Part shown: in pieces, positions 27,243 through 35,684 of the stretch | Position numbering within the stretch: the first letter of the stretch is position 1 | Layout: each line of letters begins with the position of its first letter | Source of the DNA: Mesorhizobium sp. B2-7-2 | Lineage (GTDB): Bacteria; Pseudomonadota; Alphaproteobacteria; Rhizobiales; Rhizobiaceae | Reading direction: 5' to 3' | Length of the DNA stretch: 64,000 nucleotides | Assembly (NCBI RefSeq): GCF_006440775.1 | Contig: NZ_VFTZ01000016.1 | Span: 1-64,000 of the forward strand | The notes under the pieces: generated by a model | Told to the model about the DNA's origin: nothing | The model's input: the letters and a program-made list of their open reading frames with translations, nothing else | The model's database searches: none | Translations under genes and position numbers: made by a program

Positions 27243-27330
27243 AGTCCCATCCAGATATCGGGCCGCTGGCTAATTGGCCGACGCCGGAGACCGGCGCATG
27301 ATTGCCTTGGCGGCGATCTCGGCCGGCCGG

Positions 27331-29820
27331 CTACGCAGTCCTGCCCCGCAGGCTGTCGGCGAGGGAGGACAGCGCATCGGCGAGTTGCCGCGCGGTCTCC
27401 GGCGGCGGCAGCGGCATTTTCAGGCTCCGCACGCCGGTTGCCGAATCGCGTTCGATCCATGGATGCGCCGGAGCCTTGGGATCGTTGGCGGCCGCCAGAG
27501 CGGCAACGAATTGCGCACCCACCTGCGCCAAGGCTAGCCACGGATCGGAACCGGGATCGCTCCGCGGCACCATGGGCCCGTTCGAGTGCGCGACATCGCC
27601 GGCATCGAGATCCGAATCCGCCTTTGAGTCTACCGCAGGTCCTGCGTCCTCGGCAGCGGCAATGCTGTTTCCGACCTCTTCCGCCGGCGTCACGGCCTCG
27701 CTTTCACCCATGCTCCCGGTGACGTTCTCCACCTCCTTCATGAAGCGATTGAGACGCGAGCCGCCCAGCGAAATCTCGCCGCTGCCACCGTCGAGAATTC
27801 CAGCCGACAGCGAGCGCTTGAACGCCAGCACCGACAGCATCCCCTCCTCGATGGTGCCTTTAGCGACGAAATTGATGACCCGCACGGGCCGTGTCTGACC
27901 CATGCGATGGATGCGTGCGATGCGCTGCTCGAGCACGGCCGGGTTCCACGGCAGGTCCATGTTCACGAGAGTCGAGGCATGCTGCAGATTGAGGCCCGTG
28001 CTGCCGGCATCGGTGGACAGGAACACGCGACAGGCGGGGTCGTGACGAAAGCGCTCGACCAGCGCTGGCCGCTTGTCCGACGGCACGCCGCCGTGGAAGC
28101 TGACATAGCCCAAGCCGCGCGCTTCGAGACGCCGGATGACGATGTCGTGGGTCCGTGTCCATTGCGAGAACACCACCGCCTTGGCTTTCGGCTCGGCGAA
28201 CAGATCGTCGAACAGGGCCGCCAGCTCATCGGCCTTGACGCCATGGTCTGTCTCCTGGTCCAGGAGATAGGTGCTGTTGCACGACATGCGCATATTCTGC
28301 AGCGCGCAGGTCAGTCGCCGCTGATCCTTGTCCGACAAAAATCGCGTCCTCCGCCAGCGCTGCACGATTTTCGCCACCACGTCGGCGTTTTCCTGATGAT
28401 GGAGCATCTGCATCTCCGTCATCGGCACCAGAAGATTCTGGTCGAGACGATGCGGCAATTGCTTCAGCACCTCGGATTTGCGGCGGCGGATCATGATCGG
28501 CGCCAGTGTCTGACCAATCTTCTCGAGCCCGGTGTAGCCGGTCACGCGACCGCCTTCGTCCTTGACCTGGTGCTCGTGCAGCAGCTTCCACGTCGGCCCC
28601 AGCCGGTGCTGATCGACGAACTGAACGATCGAGATCAGCTCTTCGAGCTTGTTCTCCAAGGGCGTCCCGCTCAGCACGATCGCATAGGGACTGTCGATGC
28701 GCTTCAAGGCCCGCGCCGCAATGGTGTTCCAGTTCTTCACCCGTTGCGCTTCATCGACGATCACGAGATCGGGCGCCCAGTCGGCGATCAGATCAACGTC
28801 GGGCTTGAGCTTCTCGTAATTCGTGATCTTGCAGAAATCGTCCAAACGATAGTCGTTCTGGCGCTGCGCCCGCCCGCCATTGATGACCCGCGCCGCGTTC
28901 TCGCCTTTCCTGCCGGAGAAACGCAGAATCTCGCTCTGCCACTGGTATTTGAGCGAGGTCGGACAGATCACGAGCACTTTTGTGACGCCGAAATGCCGGG
29001 CCAATATTTCCGCCGCTGCAATCGCCTGGATGGTCTTGCCCAGCCCCATGTCGTCGCCGATCAGCGCCCGGCCCGCCCGCACGGCGAACAGGGCGCCCTC
29101 GGCCTGATAGGGATAGAGCGGCACCGTCAGATGCTTTCCGACTTCGGGGTCGGCGGCCCCAAGCGGAAACAGTTCCTTGAGCTTAGCGGCGCGGCGCTCC
29201 GCATCGCGCTTTCCCGCGATGAAATCGAGCGCATCGTCATAGGCGCGGAACTCGTGACCCGACTTCGATGCCATGGCCATGAAAGACTCGAGCTTGTCCA
29301 GGCGGTCGTCCGGCAGCATCCCATCATGTTCGGCGTCGAACAATGCCGCGGCCGCCTCGCGCAACGCTTGTGGGCTATCCGTTCCGGCGCGGAAATGGAG
29401 ACGGCGCCTGCCGTCGTTGCGAAGATACAGCTCGGAAAACGCCGGCTGGTAGCCGCGAGCAAACGCGGCCTTGGCGCCGCGCTTCTTCTCCAGCTTGGCG
29501 AGGGTAAATTCGATGTGCTTGCAGGTGCCGAGCTCGCTCGTCGCATAGTCGGGGCATGAGCAGAAATTGCCGCCGGGTCCCATGCCCCGGATCGCCACGC
29601 GGTAGCTCGATTTCGAGGCGGGATTGCTGACCCGAAACTCAGAGAAAAACGGTTCGCCAGTCAGATTCTCGAGCCCGAAGGCTTGCTCGCGGCCGAACTG
29701 GCGGCGCAAGCCGCGCTGCCAGTCCACAGGCGACAGATCGGCGGGCGCATGGCTGCGCGAGAGCTTGGGTTCCCTGTTCGGCTTGATCGCCGACTTCGTG
29801 TTTCCGCGCTTGGATCTCAT
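27331..29820 (-). CDS. SWIM zinc finger + SNF2 family DNA-dependent ATPase
   Basis: An 829-residue helicase-like protein, taking the ATG with GGAG nine bases upstream (a further in-frame ATG at 29859 has none). A SWIM zinc finger CSCPDYATSELGTCKH (CxCx10CxH, residues ~87-102) precedes a SNF2 motor: GDDMGLGKTIQA (motif I, ~256), VIVDEAQRVKN (II), VLSGTPLENKLEEL (III), STDAGSTGLNLQ (V) and EQRIARIHRMGQ (VI). The last ~150 residues are low-complexity. SNF2 proteins translocate on duplex DNA without unwinding. It is the last gene of the abiE-primase operon, 134 bases after the primase-helicase gene. Confidence 0.88.
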   Translation of the reverse strand: MRSKRGNTKSAIKPNREPKLSRSHAPADLSPVDWQRGLRRQFGREQAFGLENLTGEPFFSEFRVSNPASKSSYRVAIRGMGPGGNFCSCPDYATSELGTCKHIEFTLAKLEKKRGAKAAFARGYQPAFSELYLRNDGRRRLHFRAGTDSPQALREAAAALFDAEHDGMLPDDRLDKLESFMAMASKSGHEFRAYDDALDFIAGKRDAERRAAKLKELFPLGAADPEVGKHLTVPLYPYQAEGALFAVRAGRALIGDDMGLGKTIQAIAAAEILARHFGVTKVLVICPTSLKYQWQSEILRFSGRKGENAARVINGGRAQRQNDYRLDDFCKITNYEKLKPDVDLIADWAPDLVIVDEAQRVKNWNTIAARALKRIDSPYAIVLSGTPLENKLEELISIVQFVDQHRLGPTWKLLHEHQVKDEGGRVTGYTGLEKIGQTLAPIMIRRRKSEVLKQLPHRLDQNLLVPMTEMQMLHHQENADVVAKIVQRWRRTRFLSDKDQRRLTCALQNMRMSCNSTYLLDQETDHGVKADELAALFDDLFAEPKAKAVVFSQWTRTHDIVIRRLEARGLGYVSFHGGVPSDKRPALVERFRHDPACRVFLSTDAGSTGLNLQHASTLVNMDLPWNPAVLEQRIARIHRMGQTRPVRVINFVAKGTIEEGMLSVLAFKRSLSAGILDGGSGEISLGGSRLNRFMKEVENVTGSMGESEAVTPAEEVGNSIAAAEDAGPAVDSKADSDLDAGDVAHSNGPMVPRSDPGSDPWLALAQVGAQFVAALAAANDPKAPAHPWIERDSATGVRSLKMPLPPPETARQLADALSSLADSLRGRTA

Positions 29821-29954
29821 CGAATAGACTCCGTTCAGCAAATGTTTCCCGCGTGACATTCATCCGTATCCGATGCCCCATGTGGGCTCTACTTCTATTC
29901 CCAGCGGCGCCGGTGACCATCGTCCACGAAATCAAGATCGGCACATCACAGCTC

Positions 29955-32492
29955 TCACGAGTGTCCAACCGGTACTGCCGTGGCGGCAGACGGCTCGACT
30001 GTATAGCCGAGCGCCCGGTATCCAGATCGCCGCTTAGCCGCCATTCGCGTGAGAATGGGCACAAGGTCATCGACATAGTCGACAACGAGAACCTCTGTTT
30101 TACCAGCATGTTGCCGGTGAAGCCGACCGATATATTGGGCCAACGTGCCTTTCCACGAAATGGGCATCGTCAAGAACAGCGCGTCCAACCTTGGATCATC
30201 AAAGCCCTCGCCGATGTAACGCCCTGTCGCGAGGATGAGCCGCTCCTGATGGTCTGCCACTCGCAGGGCAGCATCTGACGCCTTGCGTTCGGCCGCTGAC
30301 ATTCCTCCTCGAAGGACGACAAGATTGCGCACGAAGCGCGAAAAGCGGCCTTGCAAATATTCGAGATGATCCCGGCGCTCGGTGAGCACGATCGGTGAGC
30401 GCTTTGCCTCCAGCGCCTTCAACACGTCGTCGAAGATCAGGTTATTACGTGTCTCGTCCTGCGCGATGGCCGCGTAAATCGCTGGCATGGCAGGACGATC
30501 CGAGTCCGCCAAAGGCGGTGGCAGTTGAAACTGCGTCGATCGAGTCTTCGCGCGGTGAACAATTCCCCGCCCCGCTGCTTGGGCACGCGCATCAACGCGA
30601 TGCCGAACTGGGCCACATTGCATGAAGATGATTGGATGGTGACCGTCTTTGCGGGCCACCGTCGCGGACAGTCCGAGGACATAGCGCGCTTTCGCCCGGC
30701 GGGCCACAAGCTCAAAGCTCGCCGCCGAAAGATGATGGCACTCATCGACAACCAGATGACCGTAGTTCGCTACCATGTCGGATACTTCACCTCGGCGCAC
30801 GAGGCTCTGGATCAATGCGACATCAATGATACCAGTCGGCTTGCGGCGTCCGCCGCCAATGACGCCGATATCTTTCGGATCGATATCGAGGAATGTCCTT
30901 AGCCGCTCCACCCACTGGGTGAGCAATTCGCGGCGATGGACAAGAACAAGCGCATTGCGTCCGCGTTGCGCAATCAAGGCTGCGGCCACCACCGTCTTGC
31001 CGAAGGCGGTCGTCGCCGCAAGCACGCCATGCTCATGCGGAAGAAGGGCGTCAAACGCCTTGACCTGCGGCTCGTACAACGTCCCCTGAAACCGTATTCG
31101 GCTCGCAAGCGGATCGCCGATCGCCCTCAGATCATTCAACTCAACCTCGGCGCCCTCGCCTTGGATCAGCTCAACAGCTTCGTCAAGGCATCCGCGGGGC
31201 AGCCCCACATGACGCGCGTGAAGTTCGGCGCAGGAGATGATCCGAGGCTTGCCGAAGGTCGAGAGACGCATGGACTGCGCACGATAGAACTCAGGGTTTT
31301 GGAAGGCCGCCAGGCGTATGAGCCGCGTCGACATTGCCGACGGCAAATCGGTCCGGTCTATATAGAGCTGGTCGGCGACCACTATCGTGATCTTGCCCGA
31401 CAGGGGACTGCCGACCGGCCCCGCTTTGGGGCGCCGAGACGGTGTCATGCGCCAGGGCTCGTCCGCTTCTTCATCTTCGACGGGCATGCGGACGCCCAGA
31501 ATACGGCCACGCGTCTCCGCATCGTCGACGATTTCTGCGGCGGCCTTGGCCGATAGCCGTGGCATCGCCGCCAGAAACGCCCTTTGGTCGTCGTATGGAC
31601 GAAGATCTTGGTCGATGAAGACACTGTTTCCAAGCTCGCGCGCGCGGCGCTGCAAAGGTAAAGCGATCAGATTGCCGAAGCCGCCGACCGGCATGATATC
31701 CTGGCTCGGAAAAAGGCGATCGTATGAGGCGAAACCTATTTCCGGGCGACGCTCCATCGTTTCCGTCAGCATTGTCGCGCCAAGTTGCCGAGCGGTGCGC
31801 GCCGAAACCGGCTCAGAGAAGAAAATCCACACATGACCACCATTGCCGGATCGAGACCGCTCAAGGGCCGCAGCAACGCCCTTGGCCTGGCAAGTCTCCA
31901 GCATGGCCAAGGCGTCAGCCACCCAGTTCTCCTCGTCAAAATCGGCGGCCAGAAACCAGCAGGTCTCGTCAGGAAGCAGCGGATAAACACCCGCCACGAA
32001 ATCGCCGCCAAAGCCGCGTGCGGCCTCGCCGCGCAGATGCTTTTCGATGATGTCGTCGGCGACCGGGATGAAGGCTTGATGAGGGCACTCGCCGCATTTG
32101 ACCTGAGGCTTCCCGCATACCCCTTTCACCCACTCGTTGGCGCACGCGGGCGCATAGCCGGACTTTGCGGCCTTCCGATTTTCCCATCTGACAGGGAATA
32201 CGTCAGCACGGCCTGCGAATAGGCCCCGAAACAGCGCGATCTTTTCCGTGGTGGGTGACGCGGCAGTGACCCCCGGCGCATCTGCAATGACGGGTGGTGA
32301 ATAATTTGCGGCCGCGGCCGAGCGCCGGCTCACCAGATTCCTCAGCGCGGCCTCAAGCTCTTTCCGCTCGGCCTCATTTGCGGCTAGGCGGTCGCGAAGC
32401 CGCTCAATCTCGACCTCGAGTTCGTGCGCAGTCTCGGCGCCACTGCCCAGCACCAGTCGTTTCGACACAGCTCCGCTCAGCCAAGTCTTCAT
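29955..32492 (-). CDS. Archaeo-eukaryotic primase + SF2 helicase (TOTE conflict-type) protein
   Basis: An 845-residue protein. A short coiled coil (residues ~24-56) leads into an archaeo-eukaryotic primase-like domain (~85-300). This has a Cys cluster at 117-136 (VCGKPQVKCGECPH), the metal motif AADFDEENW (~183), the SRSGNGGHVWIFF motif with its His (~220) and SYDRLFPSQD. The second half is an XPB-like SF2 helicase: ATTAFGKTVVAAAL (~495), VVDECHH (~582), LGLSATV and QYIGRLHRQHAGK. This combination is what I know as the TOTE conflict-system primase-helicase. Start overlaps the abiEii stop by four bases (ATGA). Confidence 0.85.
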   Translation of the reverse strand: MKTWLSGAVSKRLVLGSGAETAHELEVEIERLRDRLAANEAERKELEAALRNLVSRRSAAAANYSPPVIADAPGVTAASPTTEKIALFRGLFAGRADVFPVRWENRKAAKSGYAPACANEWVKGVCGKPQVKCGECPHQAFIPVADDIIEKHLRGEAARGFGGDFVAGVYPLLPDETCWFLAADFDEENWVADALAMLETCQAKGVAAALERSRSGNGGHVWIFFSEPVSARTARQLGATMLTETMERRPEIGFASYDRLFPSQDIMPVGGFGNLIALPLQRRARELGNSVFIDQDLRPYDDQRAFLAAMPRLSAKAAAEIVDDAETRGRILGVRMPVEDEEADEPWRMTPSRRPKAGPVGSPLSGKITIVVADQLYIDRTDLPSAMSTRLIRLAAFQNPEFYRAQSMRLSTFGKPRIISCAELHARHVGLPRGCLDEAVELIQGEGAEVELNDLRAIGDPLASRIRFQGTLYEPQVKAFDALLPHEHGVLAATTAFGKTVVAAALIAQRGRNALVLVHRRELLTQWVERLRTFLDIDPKDIGVIGGGRRKPTGIIDVALIQSLVRRGEVSDMVANYGHLVVDECHHLSAASFELVARRAKARYVLGLSATVARKDGHHPIIFMQCGPVRHRVDARAQAAGRGIVHRAKTRSTQFQLPPPLADSDRPAMPAIYAAIAQDETRNNLIFDDVLKALEAKRSPIVLTERRDHLEYLQGRFSRFVRNLVVLRGGMSAAERKASDAALRVADHQERLILATGRYIGEGFDDPRLDALFLTMPISWKGTLAQYIGRLHRQHAGKTEVLVVDYVDDLVPILTRMAAKRRSGYRALGYTVEPSAATAVPVGHS

Positions 32493-33517
32493 GGAGTAGG
32501 CTCCGCAGGTCGTCGTCCTCGTCTCGCACGTGGCGCCAGCGACTTGTCACCGGATTTCCAAGCTTTGACGTTCTGCGCCTTCCATCGCAACGCCGGACAG
32601 GCTTCTATCGCGGCGCTCACGGATTCCGGAACGTCCATAGGAGACGCGCCTATCTCGCCTCGATCAAGTATACTGTCCAAGAACGCTCTCTCGCCTACCG
32701 TGAACTGAAACAGCAGCGCGAGTTTCTCTCGACACTCGGCCGTGACCTTGTCGATCCATGCCGCTGGGCCGCCGAAGGCATCGAAATATCGGTCATGTAG
32801 GCACATGGTCAGCTTGCCGGTGATGTCGCCGACCTCACATCCGATCGTTGCGGGTGAGGCGGTGCGCCAATCGAAGCTCTTGGCGCTTGCGCCGATCATC
32901 AAAGTGGCGGCCTTGATCTTTGCCCAGTCGAGAGACGGCATGGCGATGATCCGGTGTGCGTCGAACAGATCGCGTGCGGTGCGCCGCGTAACCAGCGCGA
33001 CCATCTTGCCGGCGATGATCTCGTGGATGTCAAGGACCGGCACGTCCATCGCTCGATACGATCCGATGGCTGCCGACGGCATGCGGCCCACGCCGTAAAG
33101 GGGAGCACGGAAGAGATAGTTGATATCGATCTCGACCGTCCCCGCCCCGCCCAGCGCGGAAGCATAGCGGTAGATCCATTTGCCGCCGGCGTGCTCGGAT
33201 GGCCCGCGCCGCGCGGCGTAGCCTTTCGATTCCATCAGCCGCTCGATCCGGTCCTCCAGCCCCGGCCGGTCCGCATCCATCCTCTTCTTCTCGATTGCAC
33301 CGACATAGTTGATATCGATGTCGACCGAGAGGCGATCCAGATTGGCATGGAAGACATTGAGCGCCGTTCCGCCCTTCAAGGCGACGCGCGGTCCGATCAG
33401 CGCGTCGGCGCTCAACGCGTCGAGAATGTCGATCAGCCGGATCACCCTCTCCAACGTCGCCGGCTGGAGCTGCCGCTCGGCCGCAAGGTCCTGAAGCGTT
33501 TCTCGCGATGCGACCAT
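32489..33517 (-). CDS. abiEii: AbiEii-type nucleotidyltransferase toxin
   Basis: A 342-residue nucleotidyltransferase-fold protein of the type IV toxin-antitoxin/abortive-infection family (DUF1814). The active-site motif is VALKGGTALNVFH followed by RLSVDIDINYVG (GG-T/S plus DxD, residues ~45-75). The second conserved block is IIAGKMVALVTRRTARDLFDAHRI with the RDxxD pattern. Known AbiEii members transfer GTP or modify tRNA and arrest growth. The start MVASRETL overlaps the abiEi stop by one base (TGATG); an in-frame extension to 33571 would run into abiEi. Confidence 0.9.
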   Translation of the reverse strand: MVASRETLQDLAAERQLQPATLERVIRLIDILDALSADALIGPRVALKGGTALNVFHANLDRLSVDIDINYVGAIEKKRMDADRPGLEDRIERLMESKGYAARRGPSEHAGGKWIYRYASALGGAGTVEIDINYLFRAPLYGVGRMPSAAIGSYRAMDVPVLDIHEIIAGKMVALVTRRTARDLFDAHRIIAMPSLDWAKIKAATLMIGASAKSFDWRTASPATIGCEVGDITGKLTMCLHDRYFDAFGGPAAWIDKVTAECREKLALLFQFTVGERAFLDSILDRGEIGASPMDVPESVSAAIEACPALRWKAQNVKAWKSGDKSLAPRARRGRRPAEPTP

Positions 33518-34353
33518 CAGACGCCTTCGAAGGAGGCGTCGACCGCCTGCGTCGGGAGAAGCACGCGCCACGGCTGGACGAGCACAGCGTGACCGGGCTC
33601 GGCGCCCAGCGCGTAGTGCTTCGAGCGTGGAAGACGTGCTCGCAGGCGTAACAGAACGTCATCGGTGACGCCTAGCGCGCGTTGCCGCTTTTCGAGCCAC
33701 CAGCCGCAAACCGAAGCGAGCGAGCTGTTGTCCAGCAGTTCGACATAGTCGGCGACTTTCGCCGGATCGAGATAGCGGACCAGGTCCAGTGACTTCAGAA
33801 CTTCCTCGGCGCCGCCGGCGAGTTCCGGTCGGTGCAGGACATCGACGATCGTGCGTTCGACCGCCGTCACGCGGACCGTCACCCCCTGCCGATCCATGGT
33901 CGTGGTCAGGTAGTCGGCCTTGCCGGTCGCCGCCAACGTCTTTGGCGGCGTGACGAAGCGGCAAGCGCCAAACGACAGTTCCACGCGTTCGGTTCGGCCG
34001 GCGCTGATGAGCTGGACTTCGTTGAACTCGGAATAGGCTATGCCATGCAGCTCAAGGCCGGAGTGAAATCCCAAAACGCCATCGGGGCGCAGCCTGCTCG
34101 CCGCGGCGAAGCGGTCGATCACCATCCGGTCCGCTGTCAGGTGAGCCGGTACGGCCGCGAACACCTCGCGGCTGACGCGCTTGATGTTACCGGCCCGCAG
34201 ATGGTACCGGAGCAGGCTCGTCACATTGGCCCCGCCCGCCGGGTGGCCGAGGGCCACTGCGAACTCTGCGCGGGTGAATACCGGATGAGCCGACAGGAAG
34301 CTGGCCGTTTTGCGCTGGCGAGGTTGCGTAGCGAGTCTTCGATTCTGCTCCAT
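33517..34353 (-). CDS. abiEi: AbiEi-type antitoxin and autoregulator
   Basis: A 278-residue protein with the AbiEi layout: an N-terminal winged helix (residues ~15-75, FLSAHPVFTRAEFAVAL to NIKRVSREVFAAV) that binds operator DNA, then the C-terminal antitoxin domain containing GFHSGLELHGIAYSEFNEVQL and VTAVERTIVDVLHRPEL. Type IV antitoxins of this family repress their own promoter and block the toxin without binding it directly. First gene of the four-gene operon. The inverted repeat just upstream (34355/34461) is a natural operator candidate. Confidence 0.88.
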   Translation of the reverse strand: MEQNRRLATQPRQRKTASFLSAHPVFTRAEFAVALGHPAGGANVTSLLRYHLRAGNIKRVSREVFAAVPAHLTADRMVIDRFAAASRLRPDGVLGFHSGLELHGIAYSEFNEVQLISAGRTERVELSFGACRFVTPPKTLAATGKADYLTTTMDRQGVTVRVTAVERTIVDVLHRPELAGGAEEVLKSLDLVRYLDPAKVADYVELLDNSSLASVCGWWLEKRQRALGVTDDVLLRLRARLPRSKHYALGAEPGHAVLVQPWRVLLPTQAVDASFEGV

Positions 34354-34354
34354 A

Positions 34355-34471
34355 ATGGGTAATTAATTGCCGTTACGACGCATATCTGTCAACAAACCCA
34401 CGCATGGACGGCCCCGATGGCCCTGCTTTCCGGTTGCGAAAAACGCGCCGTATAGGCTATAAATTACCCAT
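34355..34471 (-). promoter_or_regulatory. Inverted repeat pair upstream of abiEi
   Basis: ATGGGTAATTA (34355-34365), two bases before the abiEi start, and AAATTACCCAT (34461-34471) are inverted copies matching at 10 of 11 positions, 95 bases apart. AbiEi proteins are known to repress by binding inverted repeats in their promoter, so these are probable autoregulatory sites. The minus-strand TATAGCCTATAC just inside the distal arm may hold a -10. Confidence 0.55.
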
Positions 34472-34583
34472 CTGAACGCATTTTCTAGAACTAACGATGT
34501 ATTGCCGATTATCCTCAGCCTCAATAAGCCGTTGAATAAATGGAATCTTGTAGGCGACGGCCGCCCCCTATTCCTACTCGATT

Positions 34584-34732
34584 GTCCTGAGCCATCGTAG
34601 TGCGCTGATTTGGCACCGCAATTTATTTTTGCATAACAGAGAACCGTCTCGCCGATTCATCAGAAAATTGCACTCTTGATTTCAAAAGAGAATATCGCCG
34701 ATTCGGGACGACGATGGCGGTCTCAGGCTGAC
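34584..34732. mobile_element. Possible MITE or insertion-sequence remnant
   Basis: GTCCTGAG-CCATCGT at 34584-34598 and the inverted GTC(AG)CTGAGaccgCCATCGT at 34711-34732 (read on the minus strand) form imperfect terminal repeats around 149 bases of AT-rich sequence. TCGCCGATTC occurs twice inside (34649 and 34695). No open frame is present. The remaining 34472-34583 and 34733-34850 hold nothing that I can name. Confidence 0.35.
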
Positions 34733-34850
34733 GAAAAAAGGACTACCAGCCTCCATCTGTTTCGGTGTTCAGCGCCCGCGCGATTAAGAGCGCGAGTCCC
34801 AGGCGCGACAGAGCCGCGGAAACCCTCGGTTGGATGAGGCGTTCTTAATC

Positions 34851-35684
34851 ATGACCCGACGCATGAGCGAGCGCGTAGCTATCGTGACTGGTGCAGGACG
34901 CGGCCTTGGGCGCGCCATGACGATGGCTCTGCTGGGCGCAGGCCATCGCGTATTTCTGACGTCGACCGATATCGAGTCGCTCGACGAGACACGACGCGCC
35001 AGCGGAGCGGGCGAGCGCGCTGCCGTGAAGACTGCCGATCTCGGCAATGAACAAGAGCTGGCTGACCTGGTCGATGCCGCCATGCGCGCATTCGGGCGCG
35101 TCGATGTCCTTGTCAGCAACGCGGGCGTCCCAAACCCGCCGGTACAACGGCCTCTTGACGTCACACCGGATCAGTTCCGGCAGTTGTTCGAGATCAACAC
35201 GATTGCCTCGATCAATTTGATCCGGCTGGTCACCCCCGACATGGTCGCGCGCAGATGGGGTCGGATCATCTTCATCTCCACCAGCCTTGATACCATGCTC
35301 GAACCGGGTCACGTCGCGTATGGAATGACCAAGGCGGCTGGAGAAGCCTTCATCGCGGCTCTCGCAACGTCGCTTCAGTCGACGGGCGTCACGGCCAACG
35401 TACTTTCGCCCGGCGGCGCAGTTGCAACGAGAATGGCGGCAGGTGTTGCGGACCCAAAGGCCCTACTTCAGCCCGAAATCATGGCGGCGCCCGTTGTGTG
35501 GCTGGCGTCGGATGACTCGAATAACGTAACCGGCCGACGCTTCATCGCCGCGAAGTGGAATGCTGCGCTCAATCCCGCTCAAGCGTCGCAGGCCGCAAGC
35601 GCGCCGGCTGCATGGGGCGGCTATGGCGACAAAAGCGTCAAACCCGTAAGAGGCGGTAGCCGCTCAAAAAGTTCTCCGCCTTGA
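34851..35684 (+). CDS. SDR family oxidoreductase with C-terminal extension
   Basis: A 277-residue SDR. Cofactor motif VTGAGRGLGRAM, then SNAGVPNPP, IFISTSLDT (Ser) and AYGMTKAAGEAF (Tyr, Lys). Instead of the usual DGG ending, the last ~45 residues read GRRFIAAKWNAALNPAQ and a basic serine-rich tail, a pattern seen in SDRs of unknown substrate. The exact start is uncertain: 34830, 34851 and 34863 are all in frame and none has a strong ribosome site. It is the first of four SDR genes in 6 kb and ends 58 bases before the convergent LysR gene. Confidence 0.8.
   Translation: MTRRMSERVAIVTGAGRGLGRAMTMALLGAGHRVFLTSTDIESLDETRRASGAGERAAVKTADLGNEQELADLVDAAMRAFGRVDVLVSNAGVPNPPVQRPLDVTPDQFRQLFEINTIASINLIRLVTPDMVARRWGRIIFISTSLDTMLEPGHVAYGMTKAAGEAFIAALATSLQSTGVTANVLSPGGAVATRMAAGVADPKALLQPEIMAAPVVWLASDDSNNVTGRRFIAAKWNAALNPAQASQAASAPAAWGGYGDKSVKPVRGGSRSKSSPP

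Follow-up and report, generated by a model that had tools for sequence, protein, structure and literature searches.

The bicistronic AbiE pair is already known as a type IV toxin-antitoxin (TA) system, and TA pairs have already been described near immune systems (PMC8649781). In the account given in PMC3985639, AbiEi represses its own promoter by binding two inverted repeats there, changes in nucleotidyltransferase (NTase) motifs I-IV of AbiEii abolish toxicity (except when the second motif I glycine alone is changed), and the pair provides plasmid stabilisation and phage resistance. We have analysed a 64-kb stretch of Mesorhizobium sp. B2-7-2 DNA (contig NZ_VFTZ01000016.1, positions 1 to 64,000; hereafter the window), in which an abiE pair stands ahead of a primase-helicase gene and a SWIM-SNF2 gene. 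Our preferred reading, to which we give a probability of about 0.5, is that these genes are a horizontally moved defence operon, composed of an exchangeable, autoregulated and addictive abiE head and one of several possible cargos.

The locus compared with described systems

The four open reading frames (ORFs) form one minus-strand array in the order abiEi, abiEii, primase-helicase and SWIM-SNF2. The ORFs and family scans reproduced the layout given by the first-pass annotation: abiEi and abiEii share one base, abiEii and the primase-helicase gene share four, and the SNF2 gene follows after 134 bases. The window pair shares with published AbiE both proteins, the order and overlap of their genes and NTase motifs I-IV, and its predicted promoter has a similar layout of paired inverted repeats (PMC3985639). 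It differs in that the published system is bicistronic, whereas the window abiE, of predicted function, heads a four-gene operon.

The abiEi gene (33517..34353, minus strand) encodes a 278-aa AbiEi-family antitoxin, predicted to be an autorepressor. The protein matched PADLOC group PDLC02270 over residues 15-278 (5.2e-111) and Pfam AbiEi_1 through its C-terminal domain (3.6e-5). Its start codon is uncertain: the ATG used here is missing in most relatives (window 34324-34353), and the true start may lie further inside the gene, since the predicted promoter leaves almost no leader. The abiEii gene (32489..33517, minus strand) starts with an ATG at 33517, with an alternative longer GTG start at 33571, and encodes a predicted 342-aa NTase toxin. 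It matched Pfam AbiEii (3.2e-25) and PADLOC PDLC02305 (7.6e-102, the next-best AbiEii group being at 1.1e-23), so that each protein of the pair falls in one narrow PADLOC group.

In an alignment of 37 AbiEii sequences, G49, G50, R62, D68, K171, R178, R182, D183 and D186 were invariant and D66 nearly so, which makes the residues of motifs I-IV invariant or nearly invariant. The spacing G50-x15-D66 agrees with the description in PMC3985639. The predicted AbiEii model (predicted local distance difference test, pLDDT, 91.2) was similar in fold to the MenT4 toxin (6y56; Z 22.9, root mean square deviation 3.0 Å over 269 aligned residues), with only 15% identity; a sequence search of solved structures with the AbiEii profile gave none at 0.01. 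MenT toxins are described as extending tRNA acceptor stems (PMC10435456), and a tRNA-type target is therefore plausible for the window AbiEii.

The primase-helicase gene (29955..32492, minus strand) encodes 845 aa with an AEP-TOTE domain (Pfam PF22548, 5e-94, residues 83-319) and a ResIII domain (7e-21, residues 471-613); phmmer matched it to the XPBII helicase (4.2e-21). The NCBIfam model PrimPol_Msp, for a CRISPR-associated PrimPol, gave 74.1 bits, under its cut-off of 200. The first-pass annotation had called this a TOTE conflict protein, which holds for the Pfam domain name and fails for the system. A TOTE system is described as comprising TPR, OB, TBP and Effector (PMC12458937), and Pfam models for TPR, OB and TBP had no match at 1e-3 in the four operon proteins, genes outside the operon not having been scanned. 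Membership of a TOTE system was rejected on this ground. The phrase "TOTE conflict" itself matched no paper in open-licence PMC text.

The last gene (27331..29820, minus strand; ATG at 29820) encodes an 829-aa SNF2 ATPase (Pfam SNF2-rel_dom 2e-41, Helicase_C 9.8e-24); with the upstream ATG at 29859 its distance to the primase-helicase gene would be 95 bases. A SWIM zinc-finger motif, CxC-x10-CxH, was read from the sequence at C87, C89, C100 and H102 and was invariant in the four SNF2 proteins aligned, and the Pfam SWIM model had no match at 1e-3. A predicted structure based on four sequences was set aside for its mean pLDDT of 60.2. The SNF2 core is common to the defence helicases DpdE (PADLOC 2.4e-58), ZorD (3.1e-52) and DrmD, whereas the window operon lacks the partner genes of those systems and its SNF2 protein carries the SWIM finger. 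The NCBIfam scores for DISARM (157, cut-off 610) and Zorya (112, cut-off 1500) were far under threshold. Membership of DISARM, Zorya or Dpd was rejected, the operon partners being AbiEi, AbiEii and the primase-helicase only. The domain make-up (AEP primase, SF2 helicase and SWIM-SNF2) points to an action on DNA.

Cargos and operator of related abiE pairs

An AbiEii profile was run against the genomes of 84,980 species, and the best 80 of 570 relatives were examined. The near clade, defined by AbiEii at least 70% identical to that of the window, comprised at least 16 distinct loci. Twelve are among the 80, three come from our family and class samples (G131, G086 and G416) and one is the window itself; G154, which is the same as L070, was counted once. 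Defence cargo was recognised in 12 of the 16 (remnants in L051 and L053 included) and belonged to four types. The primase-helicase followed abiEii in four loci, complete in the window and in L046, cut by the contig end in L052 and as a fragment in L053. Type I restriction-modification (R-M) genes, HsdR-M-S, followed in another four (L045, L047, L034 from G416, and L033 from G154). In L034, HsdR was identified by EcoEI_R_C (4.8e-25) and ResIII (3.2e-35) and HsdS by Methylase_S (5.4e-6); the R-M genes of L045, L047 and L033 were assigned via protein clusters. HsdM was recognised by eye from its NPPF motif. An HsdR remnant was seen in the alignment of L051. Two loci (L032 and L048) carried a Dcm-type methylase, an 842-aa protein without assignment and a DruL-like protein, and one (L031) a Snf2 helicase (PADLOC "HKD+Snf2", 1.3e-115), an HNH protein and a type III methylase. 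The remaining loci had no recognised cargo (L049 and L050) or ended with the contig (L054 and L055). Outside the near clade, an AbiEii of 53% identity (L035, from G288) headed a Druantia-type pair of DruA (3.4e-211) and DruD (5e-137).

Wherever it was recognised in the near clade, the cargo lay on the same strand behind abiEii, and in the primase and R-M loci it overlapped at its start. Homology between loci with differing cargos stopped in the last abiEii codons, at the 3' end of the gene. In a tree of abiEi-abiEii DNA, L046, L052 and L053 grouped together (ultrafast bootstrap, UFBoot, 100) with the window adjoining at a node without a support value, while R-M and Dcm/DruL heads interleaved (UFBoot 77 and 74), which suggests that cargos have been exchanged. 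Since the same head carries R-M, Dcm/DruL-like and type III methylase/HNH/Snf2 cargos, it is unlikely that AbiEii is wired specifically to the helicases of the window.

Beyond the four genes that the first-pass annotation had included, the unit also contains an upstream operator. This predicted abiE promoter/operator (34355..34471, minus strand) is an imperfect inverted repeat with arms at 34355-34393 and 34433-34471. The repeat (39 nt, 74% complementary) was the longest listed for the region by a repeat search of the window. The -35 element TTGACA (34387-34392) falls within an operator arm, and the half-sites GGCAATTAATTACCC (34357-34371) and GGGTAATTTATAGCC (34455-34469) lie inside the two arms. 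Over 13 alignable loci with different cargos, conservation was 0.89 at 34355-34393 and 0.85 at 34455-34471 (0.79 for the whole left arm), compared with 0.56 in the spacer, which serves within the same alignment as the control for bases shared by descent. A 30-base promoter consensus was found with at most six mismatches in 13 of the 16 near-clade loci, the other three having 16 (L053), 14 (L054) and 11 (L055); the best base-shuffled control had 10. The window thus has a conserved, paired inverted repeat in the predicted abiE promoter region. From this layout, which resembles that of the published abiE promoter, AbiEi is predicted to control the whole operon.

Several observations weigh against a modular head with its cargo. 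Because defence genes tend to lie in clusters, some of them would be neighbours even without any coupling. Besides the window, the complete four-gene set turned up once among the best 80 of 570 AbiEii relatives, in L046, where the frame read for the primase gene meets an in-frame stop after 205 codons. No defence cargo could be recognised in L049 and L050, and the Dcm/DruL-like cargo of L032 and L048 begins 180-219 bp past abiEii, without overlap. Tree support for cargo exchange is modest at the two relevant nodes, with deeper nodes weak (11-39). For 68 distant AbiEii loci, no chain of co-directional ORFs followed abiEii in 17 (three of these at contig ends), and a first ORF of at least 150 aa lay within 100 bp in 11, the choice of ORFs being poor in AT-rich DNA. 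Half of the 14 proteins behind eight distant abiE pairs (10 plus 4, the 4 being repeats) had no Pfam match. As for the operator, the 10 bases upstream of its left arm are still conserved at 0.78, leaving no sharp edge, and the promoter consensus was derived from the same loci against which it was later matched. A generic sigma-70 scan found no promoter, the conserved abiE promoter being among its misses.

Part of this evidence would fit abiE being an independent, selfish addiction pair that has landed in defence islands without any functional link to its neighbours. TA pairs are reported to co-localise often with immune systems (PMC8649781), and abiE occurs intact without an intact defence cargo in L049, L050 and L051; the distant loci lacking an ORF chain and the distance of the Dcm/DruL cargo from abiEii point the same way. 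Chance adjacency accounts poorly, on the other hand, for the overlap at the cargo start in primase and R-M loci and for recognised near-clade cargo always following abiEii on the same strand. The scan gave no internal promoter either, which counts little as it missed the conserved abiE promoter too. Because the Dcm/DruL cargo lacks overlap and conservation reaches upstream of the operator, we have slightly lowered our confidence in an exchangeable head with cargo and raised that in accidental neighbours, which we still regard as rather unlikely.

Four loci (L045:1646-5471, L049:5119-8971, L050:5172-8890 and L031:11378-15251) share a four-gene block divergent from abiEi. In L045 it encodes a 207-aa protein, a QatC-like protein (PADLOC 3.1e-30), an HTH-ImmA/IrrE protein (RmrA-like, 3.3e-18) and a 223-aa protein (PDC-S70-like, 3.9e-9); the QatC-like gene of L050 is in pieces. 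The block is a candidate defence block.

The four-gene cassette and its parts in other genomes

The complete gene order recurred in L046, a Xanthobacteraceae metagenome-assembled genome (MAG), with protein identities of 88% (AbiEi), 85% (AbiEii), 89% (primase-helicase) and 85% (SNF2). The shared cassette (27341..34494, minus strand) is an unbroken stretch of 84% DNA homology (blastn, 7190 aligned bases) that begins a little upstream of the operator, reaches the SNF2 end and fades right past the stop of that gene. The start codon of the primase-helicase is uncertain, as in L046 the start within the 4-base overlap reads into a stop. Two further alphaproteobacterial loci are partial: L052, an Asaia MAG, has abiEi, abiEii and primase as far as the contig end, with no SNF2 seen, and L053, from Methylocella tundrae, has a broken abiEi and an abiEii followed by the first 56 primase residues. 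The ratio of nonsynonymous to synonymous substitutions (dN/dS) was 0.12-0.16 against L046 and L052 for the genes present (0.13 for abiEi against L046; SNF2 compared with L046 only), indicating purifying selection. Because a second genome has the order and the genes are under purifying selection, the arrangement is more than chance. L046 rules out a cassette confined to this strain, and the earlier view of a composite, co-inherited cassette of defence-type genes was borne out.

Among the best 80 of 570 AbiEii loci, a primase-helicase stood behind abiEii in five: L046, L052, L053, L077 and L090. In L077, a gammaproteobacterium (AbiEii 40%, primase 47% identity), the contig stops about 1 kb past the primase gene; in L090, a Holophagaceae MAG (38% and 48%), one gene read by eye as a DUF1016-like nuclease lies between. 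Behind the primase-helicase of L077 and L090, no SNF2 gene was found up to the contig ends. SNF2 after an abiE-primase pair was thus seen in L046 only, with the contigs of L052 and L077 ending too soon and L053 degraded. The row of genes in L090 (L090:2164-8174) comprises abiEi-abiEii, the DUF1016-like nuclease, the primase-helicase and a second AbiEi-like gene, the nuclease and AbiEi-like labels being by eye.

The primase-helicase was also found in 30 other distinct places (5 plasmids, 11 family genomes and 14 phylum genomes, some with flanks cut short at contig ends). AbiEi and AbiEii profiles at 1e-3 matched no ORF in any of them; as positive controls, the same profiles recovered the window AbiEii (1.1e-163) and AbiEi (1.8e-109) and, among the 13 viral loci L221-L233 (24-36% identity), detected AbiEii in 12. 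In two of the 30 (L157 and L158) the gene lies behind type I R-M genes. One of these two rows (L157:682-8134 and L158:6127-10103) also contains macro-domain and YgjP genes, the other RhuM. In five genomes with SNF2 relatives (G154, G064, G161, G463 and G163), tblastn found neither abiE nor primase-helicase in the stretch examined. The G154 relative (L130:11244-13730) is an 87% SWIM-SNF2 gene with an in-frame stop, on the contig that also carries, about 15 kb away, the abiE-led type I R-M operon; it lies behind genes read by eye as TatD-like and GNAT-like.

These distributions bear on whether the four parts form a dedicated abortive system, in which the primase-helicase and SNF2 protein would detect or process phage DNA and AbiEii would act as the lethal effector. 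The overlapping genes, their co-inheritance and their similar constraint are what such a system would show, and abiE of this family stands ahead of primase-helicases at three distinct points of the primase tree (alpha, gamma L077 and Holophagaceae L090; L052 and L053 were left out of the tree). Yet the primase-helicase does without abiE in all 30 other places, no SNF2 follows it in L077 or L090 over the sequence available, SNF2 relatives in five genomes have neither abiE nor primase-helicase in the stretches examined, and the head is shared by R-M, Dcm/DruL-like and other cargos for which a circuit of this kind is unnecessary. We hence consider a dedicated four-part system unlikely, and its parts do not behave as one obligate unit. 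The adjacency itself is not confined to this strain, as L046 keeps the full order and L052, L053, L077 and L090 keep abiE followed by primase-helicase.

The cassette is rare and appears to have moved horizontally. AbiEii (E 1e-20) was detected in one of 81 genus genomes, the window's own. In the family sample (n=151, window genome included) the primase-helicase (1e-30) was present in 12 genomes, AbiEii (1e-20) in 3 and SNF2 (1e-60) in 2; in the class sample (n=385, window genome included) AbiEii was present in 6 and SNF2 in 5. No near match to the cassette occurred among 72,556 plasmid records; the best AbiEii on plasmids was at 53%. In viral contigs the best AbiEii was at 41%, and the primase-helicase was absent from all 26 loci. 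The 1,097 phage records matched by the primase-helicase were all below 60% identity, and no match spanned 80% of the query; identities of the 10 matches listed were 22-28%.

The cassette borders were mapped against sibling genomes. Right-hand DNA common to G908 begins at about 34653-34709 and left-hand DNA common to G936 stops at 27260. Compared with window positions 27261-35549, the G936 locus (L192; left flank 96%) lacks the cassette and joins the flanks by 7 bp. We have rejected G936 as a clean empty insertion site: the 5' part of its right-hand SDR gene, whole in G908, is lost, which marks a deletion scar.

Primase-helicase homologues were found on 277 plasmid records, at 60-80% identity on 101 of them. 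Of five plasmid loci opened, one was unannotated and the rest lay near conjugation, integrase or TniB/TniQ genes. The last case, on Sphingobium plasmid pTB1 (L003:4823-10301), has the primase-helicase after TniB and TniQ, overlapping TniQ by four bases, an arrangement which we take to resemble part of a Tn7/Tn5053-like transposon. Such company would suit a mobile-element cassette in which the primase-helicase primes or restarts plasmid-like replication and abiE stabilises the element. Against this, the window's neighbour genes look metabolic (read by eye, without a family scan), the flanks are common to sibling genomes and in G908 lie on a 5.7-Mb contig, the primase-helicase follows type I R-M genes in L157 and L158, and R-M cargos share the abiE head. 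A role in replication or repair is, in our view, highly improbable.

A possible role for the abiE head

Under our preferred reading of a head with exchangeable cargo, the head would consist of the AbiEi-controlled promoter and the abiEi-abiEii type IV TA pair, with cargo exchanged at the abiEii 3' end. By analogy with other AbiE pairs, AbiEi would repress the promoter and neutralise AbiEii. The domains of the primase-SF2 helicase and the SWIM-SNF2 ATPase suggest that both would act on DNA, presumably foreign DNA that is entering the cell or replicating. The head would thus keep a costly cargo repressed while stabilising the segment through addiction. A phage that depletes AbiEi would derepress the operon, and the MenT-like AbiEii would stall growth as an abortive backup. 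All functional steps of this model are inferred. Its more specific form, in which abiE and its operator are a portable ignition-and-backup head (one promoter, a tRNA-type toxin and swapped defence cargos, with AbiEi loss to phage both inducing the cargo and arming the toxin), is a tentative proposal to which we attach less weight.

Toxins tied to defence loci have precedents: guard modules such as CreTA are described (PMC9458426) and auxiliary toxins occur in BREX loci (PMC12839542). The window pair resembles them in that a TA is physically tied to immune genes; unlike them, it is a protein TA with its own operator common to unrelated cargos, and it persists where the cargo is gone. Under a strict guard, AbiEii would be freed once the cargo itself is lost or inhibited, just as the CreT toxin is freed when CRISPR-Cas is lost, and a toxin pair fixed ahead of several defence systems is how a guard would be expected to look. 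The abiE ORFs, however, are intact beside the stopped primase gene of L046 and in L049, L050 and L051, where cargo is broken or gone, and no part shared by the cargos offers AbiE an obvious signal. Intact abiE beside lost or broken cargo therefore speaks for addiction of the segment and against a strict guard, which seems very unlikely. Of the two options raised in the first-pass annotation, a TA pair guarding the helicase genes fits better than AbiEii as their dedicated effector, with the reservation that L049, L050 and L051 argue against guarding in its strict form.

In open-licence PMC text, we have found neither this four-gene cassette nor an abiE head common to unrelated defence operons described. 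The same text yielded no described function for the primase-helicase and SWIM-SNF2 pair, which would become a candidate defence cargo if the reading of a head with exchangeable cargo is correct. Genes behind abiEii would then offer a route to uncharacterised cargos, and the induction of defence genes through antitoxin loss would become directly testable. One TA head would control and stabilise unrelated immune systems, which would help to explain the frequent presence of AbiE in defence islands.

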